Positions 13,661 to 40,481 of a stretch of DNA of 64,000 bases are shown in pieces (position 1 is the stretch's first letter; each line of letters starts with the position of its first letter). The stretch is taken from contig OX485807.1 in NCBI GenBank assembly GCA_950295325.1, positions 50,622,440 through 50,686,439 of the forward strand. The letters run 5' to 3'. Source of the DNA: Polytrichum commune (taxonomy: Eukaryota > Streptophyta > Polytrichopsida > Polytrichales > Polytrichaceae). A program made the translations under genes and the position numbers. The notes under the pieces are model-generated. The model had not been told where the DNA came from. It saw only the letters and a program-made list of their open reading frames with translations, and searched no databases.

Positions 13661-13666
13661 GTATTA

Positions 13667-15659: not shown

Positions 15660-15664
15660 TTGGA

Positions 15665-16043
15665 TGGGGCATGGTGCCTTAAATCCGAGGCCTTAACCCA
15701 GACCCCATGGAAAGTTTGAGGTTGAGCCACGTAAGGTTAGAATAATACTCGGATGGGTAACCTTCCTGGCACTTCATATGTGATGCACCTTACCGGCTAC
15801 GATTCACCCAATTATTATGGGGATAATCCAAGTGAGCACAATATTTTAAACCAACTGTATGGGAGCCTAGGGGCTTGCCCTTAGGGGAGATAGGTGTCAA
15901 CATGCTTGCCTATGCCCATTCAAAGTGTTCATCTTTCAAAGAAGACAATAGTCTTAGGGCCCCCTCTAATTCTTGTAATGTGTGTTTTGGGATTGCATAT
16001 AGAGTTAGACCAACTCGAAAATGAAGCAACACCATACTTCATG
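15665..16043 (+). mobile_element. 5S-rRNA-derived SINE-like copy 1
   Basis: The head (about 15,690-15,790) reads ACCCCATGGAAAG, GTTGAGCCACGTAAGG, then AATAATACTCGGATGGGTAACC. In spacing and sequence this follows the 3' half of plant 5S rRNA (ATCCCATCAGAAC, GTTAAGCGTGC, AGTAGTACTAGGATGGGTGACC), including the internal promoter region. A non-5S body of about 250 bp follows, ending accaactcgaaaatgaagca. That head-and-body structure is what 5S-headed SINEs (SINE3 type) have. It is not an intact 5S gene. Confidence 0.6.
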
Positions 16044-16352
16044 CCGCTAGAATAGTACTTGGATGGGTGACCTTCATAGCACTTGATATTCAATGCACCA
16101 TACCAACTACAATCCACCCATTCACAACGGGGGTTTCAACCAACCATCTGGGAAAACTAGGGGCTTGCCCTCATGAGAAAATAGGTGCTAGTCGGCTTGT
16201 CTGTGCAAGTTCAAGATGTCCACCTTCAAAAAGAGGCAAGAGTCTTGGACCCCCGCTAATTCTTGTAATGCATGGTTTGAGATTTACATACAAACTTAGA
16301 CCAACTCGAAAATGAAGCAACACCATAATTCAAGTCAGTGGCAACATATTGG
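16044..16352 (+). mobile_element. 5S-rRNA-derived SINE-like copy 2
   Basis: Directly after copy 1. It begins inside the 5S-like head (AGAATAGTACTTGGATGGG then TGACCTTC) and repeats the same body (ggggcttgccct, cttgtaatg, accaactcgaaaatgaagca) ending near ataattcaagtcagtggcaa. The same body occurs in reverse orientation three times in homoserine kinase intron 1. Confidence 0.6.
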
Positions 16353-16494
16353 CAATATTGGAGTCATTATTCGTTCTAATGTGGGGTCCTCACTCCCACC
16401 GAATGCGTAGATGCTTTAGCCGTGGGGGTAGTGATTATTCATCACATGCGAAAATCTAGACCAACACCTGAAAATCAAATTGTCAAGGGTAGAA

Positions 16495-16895
16495 TTAACC
16501 CTTAAACGACAGAGCAAGCCCGAGGGGCTTGATTTCTACATAATCTTCTCTGTAGCTCTTCCGGTACTCAACTTTTCACTTATTTTTTGATATCATTCTA
16601 ATCACCTTCTTATGATACATTCACAAAGTGAACTTTTACAATTGAAATCACAATTTGTATGAGTGATTTGTGCTTTGAAAGGATTGTGGTAGGTAGGTTG
16701 GGGTTGCACACAACCTTGTAGGAGGTTGCAAGCTCATCATTGATTGGCTCATTCATGATGCCCAAGTTCAAAAAGTGCACTATTCATGATGCCCAAGTTC
16801 AAAAAGTGCACTATTCATGATGCCCAAGCATAAAAGATGCCGTGATCCAATTTGGGGTTGCCCGCCCAAGCCATGAATTGTCGTTTAAGGGTTAA
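16495..16895. mobile_element. TIR element with perfect 17-bp ends and internal 31-bp tandem repeat
   Basis: TTAACCCTTAAACGACA at 16,495-16,511 is perfectly inverted at 16,879-16,895. Inside, a 31-bp unit (ttcatgatgcccaagttcaa plus 11 more bases) is repeated about 2.5 times at 16,752-16,830. No open frame of note. Superfamily uncertain, because the terminal TTA/TAA could be part of the repeat or a target duplication. Confidence 0.7.
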
Positions 16896-16905
16896 GTAAC
16901 ATAAA

Positions 16906-17054
16906 CATTATTCATGTCCATAACAATGTTTTGTGGGATTGATAGTATTCCATGGAATATTCTTGGATATTTCCCACATCCAATATGGAAATATCCAAGA
17001 ATATTATGTGGAGTACTATCATTCCCACAAAACATTGTTATGGATCTGAATATT
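16906..17054. repeat. Long hairpin, arms about 60-70 bp
   Basis: The left arm (tccataacaatgttttgtggg ... ggaatattcttggatattt) is largely complementary to the right arm (aaatatccaagaatatt ... cccacaaaacattgttatgga), separated by a loop of roughly 12 bases near 16,975-16,986. The stem has few mismatches. Lengths suit either a foldback MITE or a microRNA-type precursor; the sequence alone does not decide. Confidence 0.75.
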
Positions 17055-17396
17055 GTTATGAAGGCATTGCTAAGTGCCCATTTGATTACATATTAATACA
17101 TTGGAGTTACTTGTAATATAAATAAGATGGAACATAGGTTTAGTCTTGAACCCTGAGATTATGAGAATTAACATAAAGTTACCCAAGTTTTCCCTAATGC
17201 TTAAATTATCTTACACAAAGAGTGGTGTTGGGCTATCAAAAACTGGCTTTCTAGCTTGTCCTACTAGGATGGGTGGGTCAAGCCAATCTTGCATAGGGTG
17301 ATCCATGATTTAGGACAACGGGTCCCATGCACATACGCTATTTTAGATCTTACTATTATTTCAAAGTTTTAAAGGTAGGGAGGAGGCACTACTAGG

Positions 17397-18582
17397 AAAG
17401 GGGGTCCTTTCACACACAAAAACAACACAAAATTAACACTTTTCAAGGACCATGACACATGTCGTGGGTAGTTGCAGCCACTGTGCAGAAGGTGTCATCT
17501 TGGACCAGTCCTAATTTTTAACACATGAGATGTCGGAATCGTGTCGTGGTTTTAATTAGCAAGTATAGACTTTGACCTCGATCAGCGGTAATTTTTTATT
17601 ATGAATAATTTATGTAAAGTTTAATTAGTGCATATCACATTAAAAATGATTTTGTAAGGTAGGTGCCTACCACTGAAGCCCTAACCGGGCCACTTATAAC
17701 CTAACCCACCTTCCCTAGGGGGTTACAAACCACCTACAAATCCAAGTATAGGGCGCGGAAGGCCAAGGGATTCTAACCATGCACCTCATGGTTCCCACTT
17801 GGAGGCCTTAGCCACTATTGTCTATTATTTATAATTTACTACCTATGGTTTATTATTTACAGTCTACTATTTATTATTTACTTCATACTATTTATGATCT
17901 ACTATCTATTTTTAATTTTTAATAGTATATTATTTAATTTTAATGTACTATTATTTATTTTACTATTTTACTATTTACTATTTACGGTCTTTTATTATTA
18001 TTTATTTATTATAGTATATTGTTTATTATTTACGGCATGTTATAATTATTTACTGTTTATAGTATAATATATACTATTTACGGCATGTTATTATTATTTA
18101 CTCTTTATTGTATATTAGTTACTATTTATGGCATGTTAGTATTATTGTCTGTTTATATTATATTATTAAATATTTATGCCATGGTCTTATTATTTACTGT
18201 TTATAGTATATTGGTTACTATATACCCTGAAATATTTCATGTTTATTATTTACTAAGTACTATTACAATGCTTTGATGTCGGATGAATGAAAAATACACT
18301 TGTATGCGGTAATTGCCTCTCTCTTATCTTAGTAATTAATGAAGTAGGTGACTTATATCTAGGTCTAAATCTAGCTAGAAGATCTATAAAACGCATTAAT
18401 TATAGAACATTCCTTCATGGACTTTTTGTATGACACAAAAGTGACACAACTCCCACACATGTAAAAAATGTGTCGCGGAGCTCAAAATTTGAGCCCCAAA
18501 TTCGAGTGTATGCAAATATCCCACACAGGGGGCCCTCCGTATCATAGGGGTATGTTAGAAAGGACCCCCATTCCTTCTAGTG
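17397..18582. mobile_element. Non-autonomous CACTA (En/Spm-type) element
   Basis: Begins CACTACTAGGAAAGGGGGTC and ends, read inverted, CACTAGAAGGAATGGGGGTC. It is flanked on both sides by AGG (17,394-17,396 and 18,583-18,585), a 3-bp target duplication. CACTA termini with a 3-bp duplication are diagnostic of this superfamily. At 1,186 bp it has no transposase frame. The interior (about 17,815-18,270) is a degenerate TATTATTTACTATTTA-type AT-rich repeat. Confidence 0.85.
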
Positions 18583-18585
18583 AGG

Positions 18586-19660
18586 TCCCAAAACTTTTTC
18601 CCAACTTTCAAAATAGGTTCCAATACAGATAGGTTCCAATACACGACTAGCTAACAAACTCTTAATAGAAAGTTTTCTCAAAGAAGGATCAAACTTATTG
18701 TGTCACATCAACCCCATTACGAGTGCAAGCAACTGTTGGCGGTGGCCTTCTATTGTTGGTGAGATTGATGAAAATGACGGGTGCATAGAATGATACTTAG
18801 ATTTACTTGGGAATTTTTTGGACGAGTCATGATCCGAACCAATGTTGGGTGGGTATTTAATTTTGTTACTAACCTCTAGTTTTAATTTTTGAACACAAAT
18901 TAGAAGCAAACAACCTTTAATTACAAAGTTTTGGGAGTTCTTACAATAAAAGAACATTTGGTCCCAATTATTCAAATATTCAAAAATCCCACAATTTCCA
19001 TGATAGAATTGGTAAAGAACCATCGATTTTTTGGATTTTTATTTGGTTTATTTGGTTTAACTTTAATTTTAATTTAGAACCACGGTTATGAATCAAGAAT
19101 TTTTTTAAAATTTGAGAACCATGGTTAAAAATGTAAAGAACCGCCTTGATAACTAGCAGGGGTTTGTGCCAATTTTAATACCCGCCCAACATTCATCCAA
19201 ACACATTCAAGGCTACCATGGCTTGCATCTCCCTATCCTTGTGGCCTTTCTTCCTTGTGTGCTCCAAGAATAGTGCACTAAGAAAGTGGAACTATGTTCT
19301 TGTAAATGTTGAAGTTTAAGCTACACTTACAAATGAAGGTATAAACAAGTGAAATGCGAGAGATTTTCTAGAATCAAGAGAGATAGTAATCCAAAGCTTT
19401 TAGAGTTACAAAATTCCCAATGATAAAGTTTATATTTGGATTTTGGAGCTAGGACTGTCCATAGTACAACCACATGCCTTAAATATCCATTCAACTTTTT
19501 TGCTTGTAACCAATACGCATAGGAGAGGCATTGTCATTGGATTTGATTATTGCACTTCTAATTGGAGGGATCTGACACGTTGCTTGTGAGTGGACCTTAG
19601 GGTGATGCCCGAGTCTTGTAAAGGCAACAAAACGATGGCCACTCATATGGAGAGGTGATT
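18586..19660. other. Intergenic, nothing recognised
   Basis: No supported gene or element boundary on either strand; open frames are short and do not resemble known proteins. Confidence 0.45.
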
Positions 19661-19670
19661 GAGAGCATGG

Positions 19671-20079
19671 CACGGGGGGTGCACTTCATTGTCAAGTTGA
19701 ACACCACGTGCGATAAAACAAAATCTACTTTTTACATAAAGCATCACCAAAATGGTTCAAAAGTTTATGATTTTTTTTTCATGAGTAGATATACATAGTA
19801 TCTATTACATAGTAAAAATTGGTAACCAAATTTGATGATTTGTTTTTTTTATAAAACATACCGTTTCTAACTAGAATGACGCAACATTGAACTAAACAAA
19901 TTACTACAAAAATGAAGATGACTAAAAATTTCAAAAAAATATACAAAAGATATTATCAATGGTTATGTGTATGTAGAAAAAATATCATAATTTTAAAAAT
20001 TATCTATGGCATGTAATATAGGGTAGCAAACTTTTATCGCACGTGGTTATGAAATGTAAGGGGGTGTGATCCCCCCGTG
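19671..20079. mobile_element. hAT-like MITE with 8-bp target duplication
   Basis: CACGGGGGG at 19,671-19,679 is inverted as CCCCCCGTG at 20,071-20,079. A second inverted block (ccacgtgcgataaaa against ttttatcgcacgtgg) lies further in. Both flanks carry GAGCATGG (19,663-19,670 and 20,080-20,087). A perfect 8-bp duplication fits the hAT superfamily. 409 bp, non-coding. Confidence 0.8.
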
Positions 20080-20484
20080 GAGCATGGGTGGTGCTATAGA
20101 GCTGCTAAGGGACCACAACACTAAGCTTCGTGAAGGCTAAGTGTAGGGGTGGCCTTGAAAGAGGAGCCTCATGCTACCTCTTAGAGGCGCTATCACCATA
20201 TCTCTTATTGGAGATCTTATCAATCTTTTATTTTCCGGTGCTTCTTTTTTGGGATTGCTCTAAGAACATATATTTTCTTTTTTTTAAACTTTGCAAAACT
20301 GACATTGAGATTCAAGAAACTTCAAGACATTTTTCTGGTGATTTAGTTGAAATATATTTGGTGTTTTCCCATGCATGTGGTAATTACCGACTTGAAGAGT
20401 CTAGTAAATATAAATATCTTTAGATTCAGAATTGTTCTTATCATGTAGAAGGCAAGAGGCCATGAATAGAAATGCGAGTCTTAA

Positions 20485-20995
20485 GGGTTGCTTCACACTA
20501 TGGCTGGAGGTCGAGAGGCCATCGATTTCCATCAATCAATTTGCAAGAAATCCAAAATTCGGCCTCTCAACTCCTCACACTAGAGGCCAAAGTCCAAAGG
20601 CCATTGCTTTCCAAAATGTCTACATGGCAATATTTTTTGACCAAGGCGAGGGACTCTCGAAGGAAGTTTGGGTCAGACATAATTGGAAACCCAAACTATG
20701 ATCAAGAGGCCGTCGGTTTTTTTTTAAATAAAAATAAAAATTGACAAGATCTTGGCTGTTAGATTGGAGGGGTTGTTTTGGGCAAGGAATAAAGTGGGAT
20801 GTTCCTTCTTCCTCTCTCTCTCTCTCTCTTGAACTTTGGACTTGGCCTTTGGAGGCTTCACACTATACCCGCCCGAAGGCTCCAATTCTTATATTTTATT
20901 GGCTATTTGCAACCCATTTCTTTGGACTCTCAACAAAGTTTGGCCCTTCAATCCCACGGCCTCTCAACTTGGATGACCGTAGTGTGAAGCGACCC
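20485..20995. mobile_element. PIF/Harbinger-like MITE, GGGTTGCTTCACAC family, copy 2
   Basis: Starts GGGTTGCTTCACACTATGG and ends GTAGTGTGAAGCGACCC, with flanks TAA and CAA. The right half is the reverse complement of the left half of the copy at 11,552-12,030 (shared words include gattggaggggttgttttgg and ctttggaggcttcacacta). A (CT)n run lies near 20,812-20,830. Confidence 0.7.
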
Positions 20996-21178
20996 CAAGG
21001 AATTATTGTCATGCATGAGGCAATGCAAGATAGGAGAGCTAGAGGCGGGAGGTATGGAAACTTAATTGGAAAAGAAAAGAAAAGAAAAACACACACACAC
21101 AAATGTCATCGGAGCCCATACAATGTGGGACCCTTAGACTCTAAACAACACTGACACCCCCCAATTATCTGACCCTTA

Positions 21179-22031
21179 GAGCAAGCCCAATCATTCCTGG
21201 ATCTGCATCTGCATCCAAGAATGAAAAGTGGCCTCCCTCCAGGATGCATATGCAGACCCAGGCAAAACTGCCACTCATCCTGCATTCTTTACTTTTGGAT
21301 TTCCGACAAAGAGTAAACATGAATTGGTTACTTCTCAAACTCAACCGGATCATCTGTAGATATGTGTTGCTGTGCACCTTAAGCATCAACCGGTTGCTTC
21401 TCAAACTCACACAAATCTTCTGTAAATTTGTTTTTACTGTGCACCCTAAGCATCAACTGGTTGCTTCTCAAACTCAGCCGGTTACTTCTCAAACTCAACC
21501 GGATCATCTGTAGATCTGTGTTACTGTGCACCCTAAGCATCAACCGGTTGCTTCTCAAACTCAGCCGATTACTTAACCGGAACCAATAATTTCTCAAGCC
21601 CAACTAGTTATTTCATAAACTCAACCGGCTCATCTGCGATATGTGATTTTTCTGAAGTCATCTTCAACCGGTTCATTTGTAAAGGGTAATTTTCCCGAAT
21701 CCCCAAACCTCAACCAGTAATTTCTCAAACCCAAGCAGTTCATGTGTACGTGTTGCTTAACCTCAACCGGTAATTTCTCAAACCCAAGCAGTTCATGTGT
21801 ACGTAATTTCTCAAACTCAGTTGTTCCATCAACAAAGTTCTCTATCCTTTAGCTGATAGCAGGCTCCCTGCATATCTCGCCGAAATGCAAGGAGTTATGC
21901 ACTTCCTATATTACTTTACATCCAAGTTTAGGGTATAGTAGGGTGACCGGGCCAATATCCTACATCTGCATTTGCATCGCAGATGAGAAAGCGCAAATGC
22001 AGATGCAGGTGCAGGGTCACCGGGCTTGCCC
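21179..22031. mobile_element. PIF/Harbinger-like element carrying a CAACCGG minisatellite
   Basis: TTA flanks both ends (21,176-21,178 and 22,032-22,034). The termini GAGCAAGCCC and GGGCTTGCCC are inverted with one mismatch, followed inward by inverted ATCTGCATCTGCAT-type sequence. From about 21,310 to 21,850 the interior is a degenerate tandem repeat built on ggttgcttctcaaactcaac and catcaaccgg, in units of about 60-110 bp. The open frames here come from the repeat, not from genes. Confidence 0.65.
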
Positions 22032-22624
22032 TTAGACACTACACCGTTGGGGGACGTTTAGTGTCTTGCGTATATGAATACTTTACTTCATTAAACAATG
22101 AAGTTTTTACGTGAACAAAACATTATTATGTATATGCACGTTTCATAAAACGTCAAGGTCGTGAACTTCAAGGAAAGATGAGGTAGGATTCCATGTCGGA
22201 TTGACCGGAACCCAACATCTTTGCAACTTAGTTCCTTGTTCTTTTGAACATGCTTTTTTTGCAACAACTTTGAAAAAAACAACATCATTCAATTAATTTC
22301 TAATGATATCTGATACACAACTCCTCTGCATTGAGATATTACCAAGCCACACTCAATAACATTGTGCACAAATGTTAAAGGAAAAACTAATTTGAATATT
22401 GGGTTGTCTTAGGCGTCATATTCGCGTGTCTTGTGCTGCAATAACTTCCATTCCGTAGGCCTCGTCAAAAAGATTTTTGAGAAATTCTTGTCTTACTCCA
22501 AATTGCACTATAAAATGAAAACAAAACTCCATAACTTGTGACTCGGACCTTTTGACTGAGAGGAAATTGTTGCATATGATTGACCTCTCATTCATGGAAT
22601 GAATACACCTTGAAATATAGTGTG

Positions 22625-22936
22625 TAAGTTTGATACACAAAATACGATCGCATACACTAAATATCACTAACCATGTGAAAGTAAGTAACATGAAATGGAA
22701 ACTCAAATACTAAATATCAACTATGGTAATATGTGGAAGTTACATGCACGAATTCATTGTTAGTAAGAATGTGAAAAGAAATTAACAATGATAAAAGGAG
22801 AAGGGAGGTGGCGGTAGGGAAGATAGCGGCACATTTATGTCTAACACTAGTTATCAAAGAATTGAAAATTAGTGTTGAGCATGATAGGGTGGTAACAACA
22901 CTAAATATAATCAAACACTAAATATCATATTTAGTG
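22625..22936. mobile_element. Degraded MITE, CACTAAATATCATATTTAGTG type
   Basis: Left part contains catacactaaatatcactaa, right end reads aacactaaatatcatatttag then tgg. The terminal family is the same as at 6.7, 8.9 and 10.5 kb but the interior is not recognisably shared. Confidence 0.45.
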
Positions 22937-23210
22937 GAGTGCTAGTAGGAACTGTTCACTCGTGGCCTACACTTACTAGTAAGTGTGGGTGGGCTATGAT
23001 GCTCATATGTGCAACAATTTCCTTTTGCCCACCTTTTGTAACAAGAAGGTAAGAATTCAAGAAGAAAGGGTTAAGTAGGTAAATCTACTTGTGTAGACAC
23101 CTAGTGCGAAGAATTAGTTGTTGCGCGAGATCCTCCGACAAATTCAAGTGCCAAACTTGACTTAAAATATATATTCCCTCAAAAGCTTCCCTTTCTGTTG
23201 TCACCTCTGC

Positions 23211-23226
23211 TAGGGTTTAGGGTTTA
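23211..23226 (+). promoter_or_regulatory. Telo-box-like motif upstream of homoserine kinase
   Basis: TAGGGTTTAGGGTTTA, two telomere-type repeats, lies about 105 bp before the start codon. Telo-boxes (AAACCCTA) are known plant promoter elements of growth-related genes. Their action here is inferred from position. Confidence 0.45.
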
Positions 23227-23332
23227 AGGAATCTCTCTTTCACAGTCCACTCTCTCCACGATTGCAACCGGTCGACTTAACTTGACTTAGAGTACAGATT
23301 CAAGGTTTTGTGCAAGGAGGATTCTTCTAGCC

Positions 23333-26300
23333 ATGGCGGCATTGCAGGCAGTGGCCACAGGGTCGGGGCTGGGATCTCACCGCGAGTGGGTGGGGTTAAC
23401 TCCGGTCGACAGCAATGCACAATCCAGAAGCTCGCCGATGCAGAGATGGTGTTCAAGGAGGGGCATTGTGCACATGAATCCCTCGGTGGACAACAAGAAG
23501 CAGAAGCAGTTTGTGAGCACGGTAGGTTTTGCATTGCATTTTGGGCAAGGTTTATGGTTTTTTGAGCATTCTGAGGTTTTGGTGTTTTAGAGACGATGTG
23601 GGGTTATTGGTGTGTAAGTAGGAAAGGAGAGATGATCTCGATGTCGCCATTGGCGTGAATTGTGGTGTTGTTGATGCTTCATCTTACATTGAGTTGGTCT
23701 AAGTCTACATGTAATTCCAAATCCCGAAACAGGCATTAGAGGCCCCAAGACTAGTGTACACCTTGATACGGGCAGACACAGACAAGCATGCATGTGCCCA
23801 ATCTTCTCCCAGGCCAAGCCCCTGGTTGAAAATATCCGGTTCGTGGGCACGGTAAGCACTGCATTCATTTTGAGCGAGGATTTTTGGGAGTTGAGCAGAG
23901 GTTTTGGGTTTTAGAGATGATATGGGGTTCGTGGTGTAAAACAAGGAAAGAAAGAAAGACGACTTCCAATGTTGCCACCGGGTGTGCATTATGATGGTGT
24001 TGGTGTTGATACTTCATCTTCGAGTTGGTCTAAGTCTGAAATGGAATCCCCAAATGCGCATCACGAGAATTAGAGGGCCCTAAAGACGACTGCCTCCTTG
24101 TAAAGATGAACACCTTGAACTTGCGTGGAGAAGGTGGCCTGCAACCTGTCTACCCCAAGGGCAAGCTTCTAGGTTCCCACATGGTTGGTTGAAAATATGG
24201 GGTTCACTTGGATACCCACTATGATTGGGGTGCACCAGAAAATCAAGTGTTCGGACTGTCATCCATTTTGTCTTACAAGACAAAAGACAGAGAGAGTGCC
24301 TTTCTGAAAAAAAATGGACTGTGATGTTGCCACCAATGTGAATTATGTTGTTGGTTGATCTTTGAGTTGGTCTAACTCTATATGTAATCTTGAAATGTGC
24401 ATCATCCCCAAAGACTACTGCCTCTCCTTTCAAAAGTGAACACTCAAACAAGCACTGACTAATTGGCGGGCACCTACCTCCCTCAAGGGCAAGCCCCTAG
24501 GATCCCACTTGGTTGATTGAAAATATTCAATTCACTTGGATTACCCCACTATGATTGGGTGGATCTCAAGTGTTAGGGGTCACTGGAAATCAAGCTATTG
24601 GTCTAAATCTCTGATGCAAGAAATGGGTGAATGCAAATGCAGGTGCGGTGCAAGAAGAGCACAACCGTGTTAACGCCGCCCATCACACAGCTCACTTTGT
24701 CGGAGCCAAGTCCAGTTCATAAGTATGTGAAGGCCTTTGCACCGGCTACGGTTGCGAATTTGGGGCCAGGTTTTGATTTTCTGGGTTGTGCTGTGGATGG
24801 CTTGGGAGACTATGTCACTGCTGAGGTACACATGTATGTCTTATTTCTCTCTCTTAGGAATTAGTCATTGTGCCTCCTCCACAAATTGGGAGCAGTGCCC
24901 ATTTTGTTGAATCACATGACACTCTGCTTATTAAATTGTTGAATCTATCATCAGGTAACCTTGTGGAGAGCTGTAAGAAAGTCAAGGTTAGCCTTTAGTA
25001 GATGTATCGTTGAATTAGATAGGGGTGCTATGTTTGCCAGAGCAGAAACTCCAGGTGAGTTGTGGTAGTGACTTAAGGGAGATGAATTTAGAATTAAGAT
25101 CTGGAGGTACTCAGCTTATTGTGGAGGTGGTATAATATCCATTGATGATATTGATGTGCAGGTGAGTGATGCAGTGCCAGCAGGGAACATTCAAATTCAG
25201 AGCATCACAGGTGATAATGGGCGGCTCTCATGTGTCCCAGAAAATAATTGTGCAGGCATTGCAGGGAAGGCAACACTGGAGTTACTTGGGGTGCAGTCAG
25301 TGGGCATTGTCCTCAATCTCCATAAGGGATTGCCTCTTGGAAGTGGGCTAGGATCCAGTGCTGCCAGTGCTGCAGCTGCAGCTGCTGCGGTGATTTTTGC
25401 CCTTTCCTCTTACAAAAAGTGAAACAAATGCTAATTTTCTTGATAGGCGATCAATCAGATGTGACCAGTACCTCAGTTTTGAGTTTTGTTCATGTATTCT
25501 ACTTCCCTGCATTTCTCTATTTCCTCCAAAAAATGTGAAACGTATGCAAATTTTCTTATTAGGAGATCAATCAGATGTGGCAAGCACCTCAGTTTTGAGC
25601 CATGTGTTTGTATTCTACTTCTTTGCATTGACAAATTTGTCATGCATTTGAGAGTGTAGGACCAAGTAATGTTGCAGTTTTAGTTGAGTGGAGTCAAAAG
25701 TAATCAAAAACAAACTTCATGACTGCAGGTTAATGGATTGTTTGGGAGCCCTCTAAGTAAGGCGCAGCTTGTCCAAGCAGGCTTGGAGTCAGAGGCGACT
25801 GTTAGTGGTTATCATGCTGATAATGTTGCTCCCTCACTCATGGGAGGGTTTGTCCTAGTGCGCAGCTACAGCCCCCTCCATCTTATACCACTCAGTTTCC
25901 CAGAAAAGAAGAGTCTCTACTTTGTTCTTGTGATTCCGGACTTTGAAGCACCTACAAAGGAAATGCGGGCTGTCTTACCATCAGAGGTAAGACTTTGTCA
26001 AAATCACTTTGTACACAAGAATATGACTTTTCATCAGAGTCCAAGAGTAAACCTTGTGAGCCGAAAACAATTACAAAAAAAGCGAGGCTTTGGCCTCTTA
26101 TCCCTTTATCATAAATTTCTAATAAAAAATTCAGACAACTGCAGAGAGTAAGTTTAGGCAGATGATTAGATTTGTACCTGAGACAGGGATACTATGAAGT
26201 ATAACTTGGAAGTATTTGAAACCCTATTGCGTTTTTATATCGCCCATTTAAAAATCATCCTCTCATGGAGCTACTTTGGGATTTCCTACACCATATTGAG

Positions 26301-27022
26301 GCGTTAGTTCTACTTCTTAAAAAGATTAGAGTCCAACAGATCCTGAAACATGGGTACACCATTCTCAAAATTGGGAAAGTCATCGATCATTAGTTTCTTC
26401 AGCAGCCTCTCAGTGGAGTTATAAAATCACATGACATTAATAAACAAAACTTACAGTCAAATATTTGCATGCAGATATCTATGAAGATGCATATTGCCAA
26501 CTGCAGCCAGGCATCTGCTTTGGTGACAGCTATTTTACAGGGGGACGCGTCTCTGCTTGGTGCTGCTCTTTGTAAGCCTCACAAAAACCTCTATTGAGAT
26601 AGCATAATATAGGCTTCCGGGTTTGTATTCACTAATTGAGCCTGTGATGATTCTTCATGCTTTTTGCCCACTTGTATAAAAATCTGTATTGTATTCCTCT
26701 GAATCTATGCTCTCTACTATCTACCTGCTTATCCATAAATTTGTTGTCTAATGCAGCATCGGATTCTATAGTGGAGCCTCAAAGGAGTCCTCTTATTCCT
26801 GGAATGGCTGCAGTCATTGCAGCATCCAAGAAGGCAGGTGCATATGGATGTACAATTAGTGGGGCAGGACCAACAGCAGTAGCCATAACAGACACAGAAG
26901 AAAAAGGAAAAGCAGTTGCGGCAGCCATGGTGGATGCTTTCCAGGCGCATGGAGGTCTGAAGGCAGTGTCTCATGTAAACAGACTAGATAGAGAAGGTGC
27001 AAGGCTCATCGATTTCCACTGA
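23333..27022 (+). CDS. HSK: Homoserine kinase, plastid precursor (6 exons)
   Basis: Phosphorylates L-homoserine with ATP to O-phosphohomoserine, the branch metabolite for threonine and methionine, in the plastid stroma. Exons: 23333-23521, 24643-24825, 25162-25389, 25729-25986, 26475-26571, 26757-27022; all junctions are GT-AG and join in phase to 406 aa, against about 370 in Arabidopsis. Exon 2 carries the substrate-side N-terminal motif FAPATVANLGPGFDFLGCAV. The GHMP-kinase ATP loop LPLGSGLGSSAAS is near residues 181-193. Later come SGYHADN, PDFEAPTKEMR and, near the C-terminus, GCTISGAGPTAVA. Start: the first ATG after the 5' flank, in good context (agccATGG). Exon 1 is homologous to exon 1 of the next gene and supplies the transit peptide. 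An in-frame ATG just before exon 2 (24631) could give a leaderless form from an alternative promoter. Identity is certain; exon 1 usage is inferred. Confidence 0.93.
23509..24600. repeat. Tandem ~330-340-bp units in homoserine kinase intron 1
   Basis: The landmark gagttggtct recurs at 23,691, 24,022 and 24,364. The unit starting at the exon 1 donor (ttgtgagcacggtaggt) is repeated 330 bp on as tcgtgggcacggtaagc, so the donor site itself is duplicated. Each unit contains the 5S-SINE-like body in reverse orientation (ggcaagcccctagg, ggttggttgaaaat). The third unit is the most degenerate. Confidence 0.65.
25414..25629 (+). repeat. Tandem ~115-bp duplication in homoserine kinase intron 3
   Basis: aaattttctt, gcgatcaatcagatgtg, acctcagttttgag and tattctacttc occur in the same order twice, about 115 bp apart. 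Confidence 0.7.
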
Positions 27023-27251
27023 CAACTATGTTCTGGGAGTTGTTTGCAAGTTGCACATTCACCAAGTAGTTGTCCTTTATAAAACTCATCTCTCCAATTA
27101 GATTCTTTCCTTGATGGATTACCTCCATCAGCGAATCAAGTCCAGGAGAGCAGGAAATGGTTTGTATTGTGACCAACTTCAACAAAGGTTGTTTGTGATA
27201 CAACCTTACCATGAGTCACATTCGTGAAGGATTTCAGTTACCTTGCACAAA

Positions 27252-27257
27252 AATAAA
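27252..27257 (+). terminator. Candidate polyadenylation signal of homoserine kinase
   Basis: AATAAA 230 bp after the stop codon, a plausible plant 3' end position. Not otherwise supported. Confidence 0.35.
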
Positions 27258-27659
27258 GGTTACCGGCAGTGAAGGCATGTGTGACCCCAAGTCTCACAAG
27301 AAGAGTTTCATGGTTTTTTATTGATTTGTTTAGGGAATTTTGTACAATTATTCAATTTTGCAGCATGACGATAATACAGGTCAGCTCTGGTCATGAGGTT
27401 TGAAGGGGTGGGTCATTGCTAACCTTTTCTTGGCTTTTAACATTTTGGACATTGAAATTGGAGCTTTGGGTTGTAAATGATTGCAGAAAGCAATGCACAA
27501 AGGGAGAGTAAAGACATACAACAGATTATAAAATTACAGTGCTGGAATGTTCATAAGTATGCAATACAAAATTGGCAAGCACTGAGAAGGTGCTTGAATG
27601 ATAGGTCTACTTCACTTGGAATTGTGCAGGGGCATATATAATTAAAATCACCATACTGA

Positions 27660-28030
27660 AACTACTTGCTCTTTCACCTTAGTGTTTCAAAACACTTCTC
27701 CTAGGATATGTAACATGTGATTAGTACAAGATGGTTTGCAAATCCAAATTGAGACTGTAGCCACCTTCCTCATAATTTTCGGAGCTCATATGAATATCGT
27801 GTTCATTATCAAAGTGAGGATTTTTGTGCTCATCAAATGGTCATATAGGTTCCCCCAATTATGTTGACTATTGAATCTAAATTGGTTATCATATTATGAG
27901 CATGCAATTTAATCTCTTTTAAACACTTGCCATTTTGGTATCTGTTCTGTAGCCACACCAAACCACATACCACTCATATAAGTTAAAGGTATCCTAATAA
28001 AGAAAGTAACTGAATAAGTTGTTTACCTTA
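27660..28030 (+). repeat. Dispersed CTTCTCCTAGGATATG repeat, intergenic copy
   Basis: Contains in order acttctcctaggatatg, tagccaccttcctcataattt, ggagctcatatgaatatc, tcaaatggtcatatagg, gttgactattgaatc, gagcatgcaatttaatctc, aaagaaagtaactgaa. The same order recurs in introns of the TRAPPC13-like and kinase-like genes. About 370 bp, no coding capacity, no clear terminal repeats. Confidence 0.65.
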
Positions 28031-28079
28031 CATTGACTTAGTGCAATGCAACAACTAACCTACTCAGGATGCTATTACC

Positions 28080-28466
28080 CCGGAACCTCCATCTTGTGTC
28101 GAACGAAGGTTTCTGGTGCTCAGTCAGCGGAAGTCGGAACTGACGTGCCATTCAAGCGGTTCGAGCCTGCGATGTCAAAAGCTCACATCTGGATGAAAGC
28201 GGATTTCTGCAGATAAGACTCTCCCGACCTCCTGGCCGTCCGTCGTCCAGGATCTTCCATCCAACGGCACCCGTTCATCTCCCTCCAACAGGCGTAACCC
28301 AGTTTCTGCTTCTCCTTCCCAGGACTTTGCATTTCGTTCTCGCAGCTTATCCCAGGACGACAGTCCACCAAATCTCTCTCTCGAGAATTCCTGTCCCACC
28401 GCAAACCGAGATTTCTCCACAGAACTTCTCGGTAGTCGGTGCACAGGAATTCTTGTTGCATCAGCT
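28080..28466 (+). promoter_or_regulatory. Promoter and 5' leader of the aminomutase gene
   Basis: GC-rich stretch directly upstream of the start. It holds an ACGT-core motif (TGACGTGCC at 28141) and an I-box-type GATAAG at 28212-28217, both known in light-regulated plant promoters, which suits a chlorophyll-pathway gene. The last 25 or so bases before the ATG resemble the corresponding bases before homoserine kinase. No clear TATA box. Confidence 0.4.
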
Positions 28467-31400
28467 ATGGCGGCATTGCAGGCAGTCGCCGCAGGGTCAG
28501 GCCTGGGAGCCCACCGCGAGTGGGTGGGCTTGAAAGCTTCCTCCGACACCAAAGTGACATCTCGGAGCTCCATCCACAAATGCTGCTCAAAGAAGAACGC
28601 AGTGCAAATGGCTCTCTCGGTGGAGAAGAAGCAGTTCGTTACCAAGAAGTCCGAAGAGACTTTCACCGCTGCCAAGGTACGATTCGGGGTCTCGCAATTT
28701 GAGTGGTGGGAGTAGGGGGGATCTCTTGTGGCTTGGAGGAATTTAGGCTGTGCTGGTTTTGTGTCTATGGCGGTGTCGTGACGAATTTTTGAGTGTCGAT
28801 TGAGGTGGTTGGTTTCATTGCTTTGTCATGGTTTTGGTGAATTCTCTTCGAGGTTCAGGGTTTAGGTAGGACCCGCATTGTAGCTTGTTTTTCTTCTATG
28901 CCACTCTATAGTGGAACTGTACCCACTTGTAAGGCAGGTACTAGAGGTTGCTGTAGGAAAAAAATGTTTTGTCAAAAAGTTGAATGTGTTTTACAATAGA
29001 ATGTGCTTTGTGGTTTTTTTTGGGGCTTCTGGGTTTGGGTAGGACCCTGACTGTAGCTGGTTCATTGTCTATACCATGTGATTCGTTTGGTGGCAAGTAG
29101 AGAATAGAACTTAATCCACTTGTAAGGCTGCTACTAGAGGTAATTGCTGAGGAATTTAGTCAGTCAACCTCGTTGAATGTGGTTCACTGAAGGTATGAAT
29201 TGAATGCGTTTTGGGTGTTCTCTTGGGCTTCAGGGTTTAGATAGGGACCCCCATTTCGAGCTTGGTTTTCTTCTGTGCCACGGTAGACCGAAGCTCTACG
29301 CACTCATAAGGAAGCTACCAGAGGTTGCTGCAGAAATACTTGTTCTGTCAACCTCTTTGAATGTGGTGGATTAAAGACATCAATCGAATGTTGTTGAATG
29401 TCTTTTGCAAATTTCTCGGCTTCAGGGTTTAGGTGTGACCGCCACTCTAGCTGGGTACACCCATTAGTATACATTGGGTGACAAGCTGGGACGAAGAATT
29501 AAACCCACTTGGAAAGGCGATGAGATTGCTGCGGATATGTCTATGTAATTGCTGCGGATTTATCCATGTAATTGCTGGTTTGTCAACCTTGTTGAATGTG
29601 ATCGAGTAAAGCCATCGATGTACTTGTATTGGTTGCTGCTGGTTTCCAGGATTTGATGCCAGGAGGTGTGAACTCTCCCGTGAGGGCATTCAAGTCTGTG
29701 GGTGGACAGCCAATTGTCTTCGACAGAGTGAAAGGCAGCAAGGCCTGGGACGTGGACGGCAATCAGTATGTCGATTACGTCGGCTCATGGGGTCCTGCCA
29801 TCATCGGCCACTGTGACGATCAGGTACGGTGGGGTCTTTCTAATCAATGTGCAATTTCATATTCAATTTCAGATCATTTGTTGGAAGTTCCTCTTTTCTC
29901 AACGCTCAGGTAATGAAATCCTATTAGTAGAACTAGAGGTCTTCTCTCTAAATTTGGTACTCATTTGGAAACCCTTGCATTTAGAGTATTCCAAACAATT
30001 ATCAAGGCTTTGGACGATTCCTAAGAGGGGAGCTTGTGAAAGCCTATTGGAAAAAACAGGGTGTTTTGTCCAAAAACCTGAGCTTTTGGCTTTTGTTTTT
30101 CCTATCTCTCTTGGTTTCCTTTTGCTAAAATTGAGGTCTGAGGACACACGCTATGCAACAATAAGCTTGAGTCTTCCCCTTATCTCTGAAGATTAGTAGC
30201 AGAAACTCAAACAAGGATCCACTGTCGGGAACTGATGACGTCAGTGGGGATGTTGTGGAAAGCAGCTTCTTTCATGAAGATTGTTCTGGATGGCTTTTGG
30301 TCATATGACTATTGCCACATGTGTGATCTGTTTTGTACTTCATTCTATATCTCTGGCTACTTCCTTTTGATTGCTCTGTATAGCGTATGTAACTCTTAAA
30401 GCTTCGGGTCAATTATCTCTCTTGAGTCTAATTACTTGGTTTACTGGTTACCTTTATCCAGAAGTGTTGCTTGAGCATCGATACTTACAAGAAGATTTCA
30501 GAATCACGAACGTCATCTGGTATCATAATTTCTCTCATTAACAAACACCACAAACATCTCACCTGTGTTTCTTGATCAGGTGAATGCTGAGCTCATTGAA
30601 ACTCTGAAGAAGGGTACCAGCTTCGGAGCACCGTGCGCATTGGAAAATGTGCTGGCTCAGATGGTCATTGACGCAGTACCCAGCATCGAGATGGTGCGGT
30701 TCGTGAACTCCGGCACTGAGGCTTGCATGGGCATGCTTCGTCTCTGCAGAGCATACACCGGGCGTGAGAAGGTTCTCAAATTTGAGGGCTGTTACCACGG
30801 CCACGCTGATTCCTTCTTGGTGAAGGCTGGCAGCGGTGTTGCAACCCTAGGACTCCCCGACTCACCCGGAGTCCCTGCCTCGTCCACAGCGACCACTCTC
30901 ACTGCCCCATACAACAACTTAGAGGCCGTAAAGGAGATTTTCGCTGCAAACAAGGGTGAAATTGCATGTGTTGTCTTGGAGCCAGTGGTTGGTAACTCGG
31001 GTTTCATCATCCCTCACAAGGAATTTCTGCAAGGGTTGAGGGAGATCACGGAGGAGGATGGAGCTCTCCTTGTTTTCGACGAGGTTATGACCGGGTTCCG
31101 TATCGCTTACGGAGGCGCCCAAGAGCACTTTGGAATTACCCCGGATGTTACCACTTTGGGGAAGATCATTGGAGGCGGATTGCCAGTGGGCGCATATGGA
31201 GGCAAGAGGAAGATCATGGAGATGGTTGCACCCGCTGGGCCAATGTACCAGGCTGGCACTTTGAGTGGTAATCCTTTGGCCATGACAGCAGGAATTCACA
31301 CACTCCGCCGGCTGCAACAAGAGGGATCATATGCTCACCTTGACAAGGTGACTGGAAAGCTCATCCAAGGCATATTGCAAGCGGCGCGCGATGCTGGCCA

Positions 31401-32976
31401 TGAGGTCTGTGGTGGCCACATTAGCGGCATGTTCGGATTCTTCTTTTGTGCAGGCCCAGTGAACAATTTCGATGATGCCAAGAAGAGCGACACTGCCAAG
31501 TTTGCCAAGTTCCACAGGTACTGGATTTTTTATTGGACTCTCACATGGTATTGTTGCTCCCAAGTTAATCTGCATTTGCTTAAACGTATTTGACTAATTT
31601 GGGCCCCTGCTGTCCTGTTGAATTGCATTCGTGCATGTGCATCAATGGCCCAGGCCATCCTGCACTGTCTGCCCAACATGCTGTTGTCGACATTGTAGAA
31701 CTTTGGAATGGCAATTGCTGTCCTTGCCGTCCTAAAGTTTCTACGACATTCTAGTCTGTGATTGCTCTGAATTCTTAACTTAATCTGCAATCACTTAAAT
31801 GGGCGCTTGCTGTCCTATCACACTGCGCTCGTGCTTCTGAATCAGTGGCCTAGGTCATCCCGCACCATCCACTCAACGTGCCGCTGTTGACGACCAACCA
31901 TTGTAGAACTTTGGAAGGCAATTGTGTCAATGTCTTTGCCATCTCAAGGTTTCTATGTCATTCTAGCCTGTAAATGCCCTGTAAATGCCCTATAAATTCT
32001 ATGAACTTAATCTGCAATTGCTTAAACGGGCCCCTTGCTGTCCTGTCACATTGCACTTGTGCATTCGAGTCAATGCCCCAGGTCAGCCCGCACCGTCCGC
32101 TCGACATGCTGCTGTTGACAGCTGGCCTTTGTAGAACTTTGGATGGCAACTGCGTTAACATCCTTGCCATCTCAAAGTTTCTATTTTATTCTTAGTCTTT
32201 GATTGCTCTGGATTCTTAAATGTGTGGTTTTCTCATGGTTTTTAGAATTGTATTCAGTTTAGTTTTCAATAATGTAAATGGTGTTTAAAACAATAATGGC
32301 ACATCCAGTAAAAATAATGGTACATGTATAGGAGGTATCAGCTTCAAGTGTTGTCCAAACCAGTGTTGGTTTGGTATCATCTTTTTTGAAATACCACTTG
32401 GGAATCTTTAATGAGGATTTCACATTTTTTGAGACCAGTAGAGTGTGGGTATTTGAGGGTGTTTTTGTTTTGATACCATTCAGATCTATATACCATGCAA
32501 GAACCTGCACACCTAGGCAAAATCATCATAGTATCAATATGGTTTAGGATGGTGTTGAGCTAAATCATAACTTGGGGTTGACAGAGGTTTTTTCACCTCG
32601 ACACACATCGAATATCAATATTTGATTTGTATTACGATTTTGGTACCCATGTGTAGGTTCTTTGACACCATTATCAATGTTGATTATTGATACCACGCAT
32701 TCGTCACCTACAGTATATATTGGTCAAGCATTAGTCTAAACCTCAATACTTTCAAGGATCTATTGAAGTTCATAGGTGTGGAACTGTTGTGTTTTCTTCT
32801 TATTAGTAACTAATAGCTGTAAACCTGTGTGTTTCCCATGTTCCAGGGGAATGCTGGAGAGAGGTGTGTACCTTGCACCTTCACAATATGAAGCTGGCTT
32901 CACAAGTTTGGCACACACTGATGAAGACATCGACTTCACCATAGCTGCAGCCAAGGAGGTGTTGAGTTCATTGTAA
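28467..32976 (+). CDS. GSA: Glutamate-1-semialdehyde 2,1-aminomutase, plastid precursor (4 exons)
   Basis: PLP enzyme of the C5 pathway that converts glutamate-1-semialdehyde to 5-aminolevulinate for chlorophyll and heme in the plastid. Exons: 28467-28676, 29650-29823, 30580-31517, 32847-32976; GT-AG junctions join in phase to 483 aa (family about 470). Residues 1 to about 50 are a Ser/Lys-rich transit peptide. Then come the family N-terminus [21 protein letters not shown] across the first junction, [42 protein letters not shown] (Asp295) and [18 protein letters not shown] with the PLP lysine at 323. The C-terminus is [14 protein letters not shown]. All expected catalytic motifs are intact. 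The gene follows homoserine kinase on the same strand, 1.4 kb downstream. They are separate genes that share a homologous first exon. Confidence 0.96.
28852..29640 (+). repeat. Tandem ~190-bp units in aminomutase intron 1
   Basis: The landmark ggcttcagggtttaggtagg appears with changes at about 28,852, 29,024, 29,226 and 29,419. Each is followed by gtagctggtt-like sequence, cacttgtaaggc, ctagaggttgctg and tcaaccttgttgaatgtg. Units are about 170-200 bp and well diverged. Confidence 0.7.
31561..32218 (+). repeat. Three tandem ~215-bp units in aminomutase intron 3
   Basis: taatctgcaattgcttaaa, ggcccctgctgtcctgt, tgtagaactttggaa and tttctacgtcattctag-type words occur in the same order in units starting near 31,561, 31,779 and 32,001. 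The short open frames on both strands here are produced by the repeat. Confidence 0.8.
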
Positions 32977-34430
32977 GCGAAACGGCAAGGCTGTTAGGAT
33001 TCAAATTTTAGAACTGCAAATTTTGGACGTAGTATTTGTGGGATTTAAGGCAGTCAAGGGAGTCGACTTCTCATCCAAGATCCTCTTCAAAAACTTATGT
33101 AACCCTCATCAGTAGCTGCCTGAGTATAGTATGAGCACAGCTTGAAATCTGGTGGTGCTATGGGAATAGGAGTGGCCAGCTGTGGCTCATTTGCAAACCC
33201 CAACATACTCATTTCTCAGTCTAGAGTCATCTGGAAGGATCTTCGAGGTCTTCATGAGTTTCTCCTTGTGAGGAATAAAGCGCATAAGAATCTCCAGTGA
33301 TGGGTATTTTGAGGCTTGTGTGTCAATGAGGAGATTGATGATATGTTGACATGAATGTTTTAACAGGAGATCACTTTGACCCAAGACAATGGATTGCAAC
33401 ATTAACGTGTCTCTTCATATGCCAACAACTTGGAGTAGGACTAATAATCTTTATTATTCAATATCTAGTTGCTAGAACTCAAGATTGCTGAATAGGTCCT
33501 CGAGGCCTGTTAATTAAGCCGAGGCCTGTTACTTAATTAGCCCCCCTGAGCCTGGCCTGTTACACTTAATTACATTTAATTGCACTTAATTAGTTTGGCT
33601 ACGCATGAATACTTTGTGAAAGTAAAAGATATTAACTAAAATATTACAAAATAAACATACTAAAATAAAACACTAAGGCCCCCCTCCACCTGACTGTAGC
33701 TAAGCCTAAAAGTTGGTTCTAAAAACATGGCCTTCACACCATCGACATTATCTAGTACCAAGCCTGGTTGGCAAGTGATGTGGCATGGTTTAGAAGTGGA
33801 GGTTTTAAGCCTCAAGCACCGACCCTTCCATCGGTACCTAGATATGAGGCAAGAATGTAGGACCTTTAAAAGTGTTGCCTCCTGCCCTTGTGATCGGTTG
33901 CTTTTAGTCTTAGCTATGAGGGCACGAGAAGCTACATTAACAAAAACCGATGGTAAGATAGATGAGTAGTGAGGCATTTGGGGATGGACAAAAACAATCC
34001 AACATTTCATTGCTTGGTAGATAAAATAATGAACATGTGTGAAAGCTACTTAACTAAACCTACTTGAAAATCTCCGGAGCAAGTTCTTGTAGGTGCATTG
34101 GGAGAGCCAGATGCCTCCGCTATAACCGAGGGAGCCTTACCCATGTTTTAGGAAAAACTTTGGTTATTTGGTAAAGTTAGGTGGGGATGGGGCATAATTT
34201 TAGTTTTATTTTAGAATGACATAGACCCTTTAAATGGTAAGTCACAAAAATTATAGCCTCAGTGCTAATGAAGGTTTTGTAATGTTTATGCCTTCCAAGT
34301 TAATTACATGCTTTATTGATGGTTTCACTTCGAAAAGGAAATCCCATTCAGTTGCTTATTTACTCTATGAAAGTGAACATATATATTGGATTTTGAACCT
34401 TGAAATTGAAGTGCACATGGTTTGCTAAAA
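32977..34430. other. 3' flank of the aminomutase gene and intergenic sequence
   Basis: Presumed 3' UTR at the start, then a short run of ttaattaa/cacttaattac words near 33,507-33,595. Open frames around 33,660-34,010 exist on both strands but I cannot link them to a protein family. Confidence 0.45.
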
Positions 34431-38100: not shown

Positions 38101-40481
38101 AGTACCAAATCCCTTCTTTTTCTGGACCATGTGCGGTTTGATCCACAACCACCTATGACCGTATCAGTTCTGGAAGTGGAGAGCAATGACAAAGATGAGT
38201 CTGAGGGCCCTTTAAGGTGGACAGCTCACCAAGTAATTTGAAAGTCTAGCTTGTTTATGTGTTGCTGTTTCAGTATGGATACAAAATACTGCTTGATACA
38301 GAATGTTTAAGGAGAGATTGTGATGTGGTCAAATGATACCAAATTTTGATAAATGAACGGTTCATCTTGTATCACTCTACCTATTGTCAGATTGCTTTCC
38401 TGGATGGTTTCCAACATGTAACTCACAATCTGCGTAAGAAGTTCCAGCTGTGTGTTTTGTGTTTGATCTGAGATACTTAACAGTTGGTTGTGTCGATTTC
38501 AGTGGGCTTCTGCAGCAGATCAAAGTAGTAAAAGCAAATGGAGGCACCCGTCATTTTCTTTACCAGTTCCATAAACCGGCAGGACCACCTGTGGTAGCTA
38601 AGGCAGATGGTAGTAATACACTAGGGAAGTTAGAAATTATGTGGCGCACTACTCTTGGTGAAGCAGGTCGGCTTCAAACACAACAGATACTGGGAAATGT
38701 AAGTACCTACTTGACATCTATTTCTTGCATCAAGCCAACTGTTTGGCTCTGGGTTTTTTATATGATAATAACATAGGTGACTTAGGGGCATCACAATTCA
38801 GCCGTTAGAATACCTTGGCCTAGACATCAATCTGCATGTCCTTCTCTGGAAGGATTTAATATTTCAAAATCTGTACTTAATATTCATCTAATAGCACCTG
38901 GTTGGCTGCTTGTCTTGCTGTGCATTATTAGATGCAGTTTCATATAATTGTTAGTTTTTGGTACACCTGACAATATACGACCCCTTAAAAATAGCTCCAG
39001 AGATGGCTAAACCCACAATTTCGCGTGATCATTATTGGTGCCAGGAATCCATTTGGACCTTCTTGAGCCTTAGGAAAGGTTAAGCAGCATTGCTATTGTG
39101 TGAATCTGGTGTGGGACTTGAACTTACCTATGAAATCATATGCAGCCAATTCCGCGGAAGGAAGTGAATTTGCGGATTGTGGAACTTCCATCCCGCATCC
39201 TTCTTGAGAGACCTTTTCTGGTATATATCACTTCATCGTTTCCATTCTGAAATATGGTTTTGATGGTTTGAGAGTGGCTTATTGACGCTTCCATCTGAGT
39301 TGTCAGTTTGTAGTGCTTGCATGAGGGTGCCTGCTTGTTGTGTAATAGAGGTATATGGTATTACTAGCAACTTATAATTAGGGGTTCCAGCAGCCAGTAT
39401 TCAATTTGAAGTTGGATGTTCTTCCCTTGACATGCATACATTCATAAATTTGTATGATTCATTTTCTGAGTGTTCCTGGTAAACCCTGTACTGTTGTAGG
39501 TTCGGATGAGTGTCACCAACCAGACTGATAGACATCTTGGACCTCTTCGGATTTCCATGTCACAAGAAGATGCTCAGGGCATCCCTAGAGCAATTGTTGT
39601 AAATGGCCTCTGGAGCATGGTCAGTAATCTCCCTCCTGTGTATCATATCATGCACAACTAATAGCAGCATATCTTGCTAGATGTATAGATAATATACTGG
39701 TCTGACCATGCAATTTGGTCTGTTGCGGTCTATTGTTTTTGTACCCTCTTTCTAGCTGTTTTATAAGGTCTCTTATGTCTAGCATGAATGTCTCATGTGC
39801 AGGTTGTACCTCAATTGGAGCCTCTGGCCTCACCAGACTTCAATATGGTACATCTTTCTGCCTTTCTTTCCACATTGGTGTTCTTTTACTATATTTTGCT
39901 GGTTGCACATAAATCCATTTTTTGGCATTGTGTGCACATGATTTACATTGTTTTTAAGACTCTCTTTGATTATGAGGTTTTTGTCTGATTATATTCATGA
40001 GGCTCTTTCTTTTCAGCATAGAGAGTGATGAGTGTGGCATAATCAGGCGAGTTGTTGCCATCCACTTACAATATGATTTGTCATATGCAGAGTTTAGTAG
40101 CAACAGCTGTTGGTGTGCAAAAAATTACAGGGATTGGGGTGGCTGACACACGAGACGGAAAGCCCTTCGACACACTTGCAGCTACTGAGGTACACTTCAT
40201 CTGTGACCCTCAACTGCTTAATTTGCTATATCCAATATTCGGACTTAGTTTCTCTTTTGAAATCCTTTGAAGTTGTTTGTCTTCCAGTTATGTTGAGCCA
40301 GCATGTTGGGTTTGACCACCCAGCTTATTCAAGCAATGCCTGTATGTATTGGAACACTAAATGTAGCGGTTTGCATCAAGTGTGGATCATAGAGTAGTTC
40401 AGTGGCTGTATGTTGATTCAAGTGGCATCCTGACGGTGGTAGTGTCCTTGTTGTTTGCAGGTGTTTGTGGAGCCTGAATAA
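35104..40481 (+). CDS. TRAPPC13-like trafficking complex subunit (12 exons)
   Basis: Homologue of TRAPPC13, a subunit of the TRAPP tethering complex acting in Golgi-related vesicle traffic. Exons: 35104-35366, 36659-36743, 36885-37015, 37426-37528, 37828-37842, 38068-38216, 38503-38698, 39146-39220, 39500-39619, 39803-39847, 40091-40189, 40461-40481; 433 aa. Family landmarks in order: HSLAFRVMRLCRP, GLLVLPQTFG-SIYLGESFCSYI, AELQTERQRVTLAD, DADGERKYLPQYFKF, NPLSVRTK-VRTVK-ETTYLEACIEN, GEAGRLQTQQILGN, VTNQTDRHLGP and a C-terminal VGVQKITGI. Exon 5 is only 15 nt (VRTVK). Intron 2 uses a GC donor (AAG|GCAAGT). The last exon codes six residues. Every junction keeps phase. The gene is convergent with DRC3 about 0.9 kb away. 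Product identity rests on similarity recalled from plant and animal homologues. Confidence 0.9.
35430..36550 (+). repeat. Array of the CTTCTCCTAGGATATG repeat in TRAPPC13-like intron 1
   Basis: Four head-to-tail, variably truncated copies start near 35,490, 35,665, 35,820 and 36,225. Landmarks are ctctgcacccacttctc, gtgagatgattgacaaat, tagccattttcctcataa and gagctcatatgaatatc. Two units are preceded by a shared lead-in (gagctcagtcccggataaag). They fill most of the 1.29-kb intron. Confidence 0.75.
37828..37842 (+). other. 15-nt micro-exon of the TRAPPC13-like gene
   Basis: GTGCGGACAGTGAAG between tattctgtag and gtatgaaa. It encodes VRTVK and is needed to join NPLSVRTK to ETTYLEACIEN without loss, as homologues have a contiguous VRVVKET-type sequence there. 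Phase 0 at both ends. Confidence 0.8.

Follow-up and report, generated by a model that had tools for sequence, protein, structure and literature searches.

Two neighbouring genes and their shared leader

We analysed a 64,000-nucleotide stretch of the moss Polytrichum commune (hereafter the window; contig OX485807.1, C5:50622440-50686439 of a 407.8-Mb assembly of 64 contigs, which was the genome searched), in which predicted genes for homoserine kinase (HSK) and glutamate-1-semialdehyde aminomutase (GSA) are neighbours and begin with related leaders. The HSK model runs from 23333 to 27022 (6 exons, 406 residues) and the GSA model from 28467 to 32976 (4 exons, 483 residues). Both have GT/AG borders and an open frame; they share a strand, with 1,444 bp between the HSK stop and the GSA start codon. 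The HSK protein scored 299.6 bits against NF002288 (cut-off 194) over residues 93-400 of its 406, and 233.2 bits against TIGR00191 (cut-off 168.25) over residues 94-403. The whole 483-residue GSA protein scored 598.7 bits against TIGR00713 (hemL; curated cut-off 527.3). An exon-by-exon search of the whole genome, which scores the best candidates only, returned one exon set for each gene; as far as such a search can tell, neither gene appears to have a second copy. The HSK search additionally returned the HSK leader and two partial matches (42-43% identity) on contigs C4 and C1.

When we recounted the first exons, HSK and GSA agreed at 58 of their first 66 nucleotides and at 20 of their first 22 residues, exactly as a previous reading of this DNA (the sequence-only reading) had reported. 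It had also counted five of the eight nucleotide differences as silent. Seven codons are changed, and five of them (7, 11, 12, 21 and 22) are indeed purely silent; counted by sites, however, six differences are silent and two replacing, so that the figure was a slight undercount. Over the whole exon the same residue stands at 35 of 59 aligned codons. The exon-pair DNA alignment scored 118, while the maximum of 1000 dinucleotide shuffles was 31; with the 22-codon head removed it still scored 37, as against a shuffle maximum of 29 in 1000. The HSK leader is homologous to that of an unrelated gene, the mature parts of the two proteins coming from different families, and a common origin of the leaders is supported by these alignments. 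The leader was found at only two places in the assembly, 5.1 kb apart (DNA search, E<=0.001). No third copy was found in the assembly, where a protein search extended to E<=10 added a single match at E=1.57. As to relatives, 151 stretches of genome_contigs matched a leader pattern and none of them encodes one. In viral_contigs there were five distant GSA-like proteins (22-37% identity, matches from query residue 60 at least), which were not used.

The limits of the similarity could be set on both sides. The earlier claim that it reaches KKQFV holds, since the protein alignment continues to QFV and HSK carries SVDNKKQKQF; the DNA alignments stop near 23500/28634. Between the ATG and QFV the net length differs by three whole codons (the alignment was made on protein, and single indels were not independently counted), and no stop codon interrupts the HSK copy. 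Both exon 1 models end in phase 0 at GT/AG borders, as had been said, with predicted junctions at 23521/24643 and 28676/29650. The extent implied earlier does not stand, however, as the match stops well inside GSA exon 1, before the splice site, and starts about 30 nt 5' of the ATG. The local score of the stretch from -30 to -1 was reached by 2 of 1000 dinucleotide shuffles with one gap cost and by 19 with another, and by 3 of 500 in a separate run. Longer 5' alignments start at 23248/28374, and nothing stands out in them except the 30 nt directly before the ATG. A longer match in the 5' untranslated region was rejected: the score from -100 to -1 was reached by 2 or 128 of 1000 shuffles by gap cost, that from -120 to -31 by 41 or 145 of 1000, and the global score from -85 to -31 was equalled in 248 of 1000. 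Upstream of -30 we found nothing convincing (p=0.10, simulated power 0.995). Aligning both exon 1 copies with their flanks, as the sequence-only reading had proposed, showed similarity in the exon and about 30 nt 5' of it, and none convincing at the exon end, at the intron starts or further upstream.

Direction of transfer and divergence of the two copies

The shared block ends in SVDNKKQKQFV in HSK and SVEKKQFV in GSA, which corresponds to the start of mature GSA (SV-D/E..KK..F). The chain 5hdm ('chloroplastic'), which we take to be Arabidopsis GSA, starts VDEKKKSFSLQKSEEAFNAAKNLMPGG, and VDEKKKSF there was matched by eye. Alignment showed F.T.KS.E.F.AA..LMPGG to be common to the moss GSA and the cyanobacterial chain 2gsa, presumably Synechococcus GSA. 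The homoserine kinase profile starts at residue 93 of HSK, and the seven listed solved homoserine kinases align from residues 83 to 95. Since a piece of mature GSA sits in HSK ahead of the start of the homoserine kinase profile, GSA would be the source of the leader, and the direction from donor to recipient can be read from this segment. The claim of a transfer from GSA to HSK is therefore well supported, the HSK leader holding what appears to be a remnant of the mature GSA N-terminus. We further noted by eye that the HSK copy has the D of 5hdm and also its longer spacing (SVD.KK), and that the present GSA is shortened to SVEKK; the HSK form is as expected if it was copied from an earlier GSA. 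Similarity by itself is symmetric, and the leader could in principle have been original to HSK and passed to GSA. This we consider very improbable and already largely refuted, as the block ends in a mature-GSA piece that is present in 5hdm and precedes the part of HSK that matches known homoserine kinases.

Over the whole of exon 1 the silent divergence (dS) was about 0.55 and the replacement divergence (dN) 0.25 (41.2 and 135.8 sites). Because of this dS the leader copy is not recent, and the earlier description of the duplication as such is not supported; very roughly, the silent rates of mosses would place it some tens of millions of years back. In the 22-codon head dS was 0.45 and dN 0.043, and in the tail 0.63 and 0.40, where silent change is near saturation in the 15 codons with an unchanged residue. 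Replacement change differed between head and tail (p=0.00015), and within the head silent change exceeded replacement change (p=0.004). These figures support constraint on the first 22 codons, as protein, in the HSK/GSA pair. Selection on both copies, as had been suggested from the excess of silent changes, is likely and is not proven, since an invariant GSA opposite a drifting HSK would also fit a single pair. For the HSK copy taken by itself, constraint is probable and, with two sequences, not proven.

Probable replacement of the HSK transit peptide and its alternatives

In plants, homoserine kinase has long been a plastid enzyme and has a transit peptide of its own. We observed that HSK exon 2 starts VRCKKSTTVLTPP ahead of the kinase domain, and that the VRCKKSTT stretch in it reads as transit-peptide-like; this start resembles the tail of an earlier transit peptide. 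The sequence-only reading had spoken of the acquisition of a transit peptide. A new leader on HSK agrees with our results; a first gain does not, and replacement fits better, because plant HSK is generally known to be plastidial and the start of exon 2 resembles an older plastid leader.

The composition of the HSK leader (8 K/R vs 3 D/E, and 12 S/T in 63 residues, with the first 16 residues free of arginine) is partly what a transit peptide would show, and the GSA leader has 9 K/R vs 3 D/E. Among the features listed for transit peptides are an excess of basic over acidic residues, absence of N-terminal arginines and multiple prolines (PMC8645953).

We consider it likely that the HSK transit peptide was replaced by an exon-internal 5' fragment of the neighbouring GSA gene. 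The fragment, some 30 nt of leader RNA and about 61 codons covering the whole transit peptide and the first mature residues, would have been copied 5.1 kb upstream with its strand kept, and would have become the first exon of HSK, displacing the front of the gene's own transit peptide. Since the 3' break would lie inside GSA exon 1, the copy would have been joined to HSK through a splice site other than GSA's own. Today the HSK precursor would go to the plastid by a GSA-type leader, of which the N-terminal 22 residues would be held nearly constant while the remainder drifts.

The sequence-only reading had put the transfer down to exon shuffling through the matching phase-0 introns, and this form of the event is not supported, as the introns do not sit at homologous positions and their flanks show similarity at chance level or close to it. 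The equal phase is a fact, not a mechanism. Classical exon shuffling could have moved the whole of GSA exon 1, together with parts of its introns, by intron recombination; alternatively, a tandem duplication running from HSK exons 2-6 to GSA exon 1, after which the first HSK copy was lost, could have placed the GSA promoter and exon 1 ahead of HSK exon 2. Such an origin agrees with the position of the neighbours on one strand and with their phase, and intron sequence is readily lost, both first introns having been remodelled by tandem repeats. A whole-intron comparison was also somewhat high (4 of 100 and 32 of 500 shuffles reached the score), its signal being a short T-rich stretch at 23551/29007 that is distant from the exon in GSA. 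However, after the last shared codon GSA exon 1 goes on for another 10-11 codons, and the HSK intron starts where GSA is still coding. The intron starts of the two genes matched at the level of chance (438 of 500 shuffles (int150); p=0.47; 421 and 717 of 1000), and the end of GSA exon 1 with its intron start had no detectable HSK counterpart in three comparisons (p=0.26, 0.47 and 0.66), whose simulated power was 0.985, 0.955 and 0.72 at d=0.55 and fell to 0.40, 0.19 and 0.445 at d=0.8. At a neutral divergence of 0.55 a 200-nt intron was detected in about 95% of simulations and a 33-nt exon end in about 72%, and at 0.8 in 19% and 45%. The phase matches but exon ends and intron starts do not, and strong intron turnover could hide a similarity. 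Neither a duplicated HSK body nor a GSA promoter was seen as a plus-strand match of 10000-23332 against 23333-33400 at E<=0.05, a search that covers very short matches poorly; on the same search we rejected an origin in which the HSK body and the GSA 5' end were duplicated together in tandem, no trace of it being seen on the plus strand of 10000-23332. We therefore regard exon shuffling as rather unlikely. Because the intron flanks and the far upstream DNA show no convincing similarity and no such duplicates were seen, what was copied seems to be a fragment of some 200 nt from within the exon.

Two further alternatives were weighed against this replacement by a GSA fragment. The leader might be older and shared, its first 22 codons being kept alike by repeated gene conversion, as the head is 88% identical and the tail far less. 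The silent divergence of head and tail is alike, however (6 changes in 17.7 sites and 10 in 23.5; p=0.54, with low power from so few sites), and their contrast lies in the amino acid changes, which selection explains; gene conversion is therefore not needed, and we hold it to be improbable. Hardly more probable is a reading in which the copy at 23333 serves GSA as an alternative first exon further upstream, or is a GSA fragment in decay, with HSK starting at 24631/24637 (MQMQVRCKK...) or elsewhere. In-frame ATGs do precede HSK exon 2, and phase 0 would suit GSA exon 2 too. On the other hand, a splice to GSA exon 2 would drop 10 residues that are kept as KS.E.F.AA in the aligned GSA chains, and decay is at odds with an intact frame and few amino acid changes in the head. 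We also scanned 22500-24642 for ATG frames of at least 20 codons with a phase-0 end at GT[AG]AG, a pattern narrow enough to miss the modelled donor 23521 itself. There were three: two lie in exon 1 and end at 23512, and the third is 20 codons long.

HSK intron 1 itself consists largely of a diverged tandem repeat, 23507-24254 matching 23837-24577 with 64% identity over 779 columns (E=4e-52; unit about 330 bp). The unit begins within the last 13-15 nt of exon 1 (alignment from 23509/23839), by which the splice donor was duplicated (23509-23521 and 23839-23851). With a donor scoring matrix, the copy at 23851 (ACG/GTAAGC) ranked first of the 91 GT sites in 23340-24640, at 8.79, and the donor at 23521 (ACG/GTAGGT) second, at 7.84. 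As the unit seems to include the last codons of the leader, the leader was presumably already present when this tandem duplication took place.

Several points weigh against the reading given here. We counted by eye three prolines in the HSK leader and none in that of GSA, multiple prolines being one of the listed features of transit peptides. A pair made up of a neutrally drifting HSK copy and an unchanging GSA copy has a probability of about 0.13, by hand calculation from the counts. The promoter and intron flanks lend no independent support to any particular copying mechanism. The joining of HSK exon 1 to exon 2 is a predicted splice, and a second, weaker in-frame donor stands at 23512; its score of 1.7 leaves it a candidate, since modelled donors in HSK go down to 3.98. 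HSK exon 2 is open upstream to the in-frame ATGs at 24631 and 24637, just inside the acceptor (MQMQVRCKK), and a leaderless or differently led HSK isoform is possible.

Precedents and features of the locus

The copying of leaders is already established for other genes. The nuclear rpl32 of Populus and other Malpighiales carries the transit peptide of SOD1 (PMC8018952). As in the present pair, a plastid protein is led there by a leader copied from the gene of another nuclear-encoded plastid protein; as described in that account, however, rpl32 was newly moved from the plastid genome, and exon shuffling of a duplicated SOD1 was involved (PMC8018952). HSK, unlike rpl32, is seemingly an established nuclear enzyme gene that changed its leader, with an adjacent donor and a break within the exon. 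The presequences of rice rps11-1, Arabidopsis sdh3 and carrot rps10 were copied from atp2, hsp70 and hsp22, respectively (PMC2631504). Here too a targeting signal was obtained by copying an existing one, but these are mitochondrial proteins of transferred genes, and the relevant passages do not state whether donor and recipient are adjacent (PMC2631504). For chl-fus (plastid EF-G), which lies beside hop, the intron next to the transit-peptide exon was proposed as a route of leader recruitment (PMC4522979). The likeness to HSK lies in the intron adjoining a transit-peptide exon. The chl-fus intron differs in being of phase 1 and conserved in position, and the passages concerned describe no leader common with the neighbour (PMC4522979). 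A neighbour as donor, an established recipient gene and a break inside the exon, which HSK/GSA would add, were not met in these accounts as far as they go. We found no report of the HSK/GSA shared-leader pair among the open-licence papers searched.

Transit peptides are very variable, and their history can rarely be read. Here the donor and the recipient can be identified, are apparently single-copy and are adjacent; the direction is readable from the mature-enzyme piece that came with the leader, and the recipient presumably already had a leader. For these reasons the pair would amount to an experiment of nature in leader replacement, and it suggests that the first 22 residues of a leader are retained and that the remainder can drift. 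As a speculation, which we think has little chance of being right, the head could be more than a leftover, namely a shared import signal kept the same in a tetrapyrrole and an amino-acid enzyme, with one receptor preference for both, and leader replacement between adjacent genes for plastid proteins may then be a general route of transit-peptide turnover.

Table 1. Features of the HSK and GSA genes, in positions of the window
Feature	Position	Strand	Basis
HSK 5' untranslated stretch, related to the stretch preceding the GSA ATG	23303-23332	+	local alignment vs shuffles
HSK exon 1, putatively GSA-derived leader, 63 codons, modelled phase-0 end	23333-23521	+	predicted model, alignment
Conserved 22-codon head common to HSK and GSA	23333-23398	+	58/66 nt, 20/22 residues; dN 0.043, dS 0.45
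Putative mature-GSA N-terminus remnant in HSK leader, SVDNKKQKQFV	23483-23515	+	alignment to GSA; by eye to VDEKKKSF of 5hdm
HSK intron 1, largely diverged ~330-bp tandem copies	23522-24642	+	self-match
HSK exon 2 (VRCKKSTTVLT..., then kinase domain start)	24643-24825	+	gene model, profile
HSK exon 3	25162-25389	+	gene model
HSK exon 4	25729-25986	+	gene model
HSK exon 5	26475-26571	+	gene model
HSK exon 6 with stop	26757-27022	+	gene model; whole-protein profiles
GSA 5' untranslated stretch, related to its HSK counterpart	28437-28466	+	alignment vs shuffles
GSA exon 1, 70 codons: transit peptide and mature enzyme start; presumed leader donor	28467-28676	+	model, alignment
GSA exon 1, last 11 codons, no HSK counterpart; KS.E.F.AA kept in aligned plant and cyanobacterial chains	28644-28676	+	
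GSA exon 2	29650-29823	+	gene model
GSA exon 3	30580-31517	+	gene model
GSA exon 4 with stop	32847-32976	+	gene model; TIGR00713 above cut-off (whole protein)

Four HSK/GSA introns (23507-24577, 25414-25629, 28779-29657 and 31566-32221) contain tandem copies that have diverged, the periods ranging from 116 bp to about 330 bp, and introns at this locus seem to grow by tandem duplication.

Elsewhere in the window, an open stretch at 38438-38773 (+) matched the TRAPPC13 middle domain, and another at 49830-50192 (-) carries leucine-rich repeats (Pfam LRR_4). Two pieces on the minus strand, one protein-kinase-like (56762-57118, below the Pfam cut-off) and the other cyclic-nucleotide-binding (58204-58635, above it), perhaps belong to one kinase gene. 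In the assembly, contig C8 is probably the plastid, since two PsaA/PsaB family genes lie there; the translation of one of them best matched the solved structures 8htu and 6l35, and 6l35 with its companion entries is photosystem I of the moss Physcomitrium. Contigs C1-C7 may be seven chromosomes, judging from the contig numbering.

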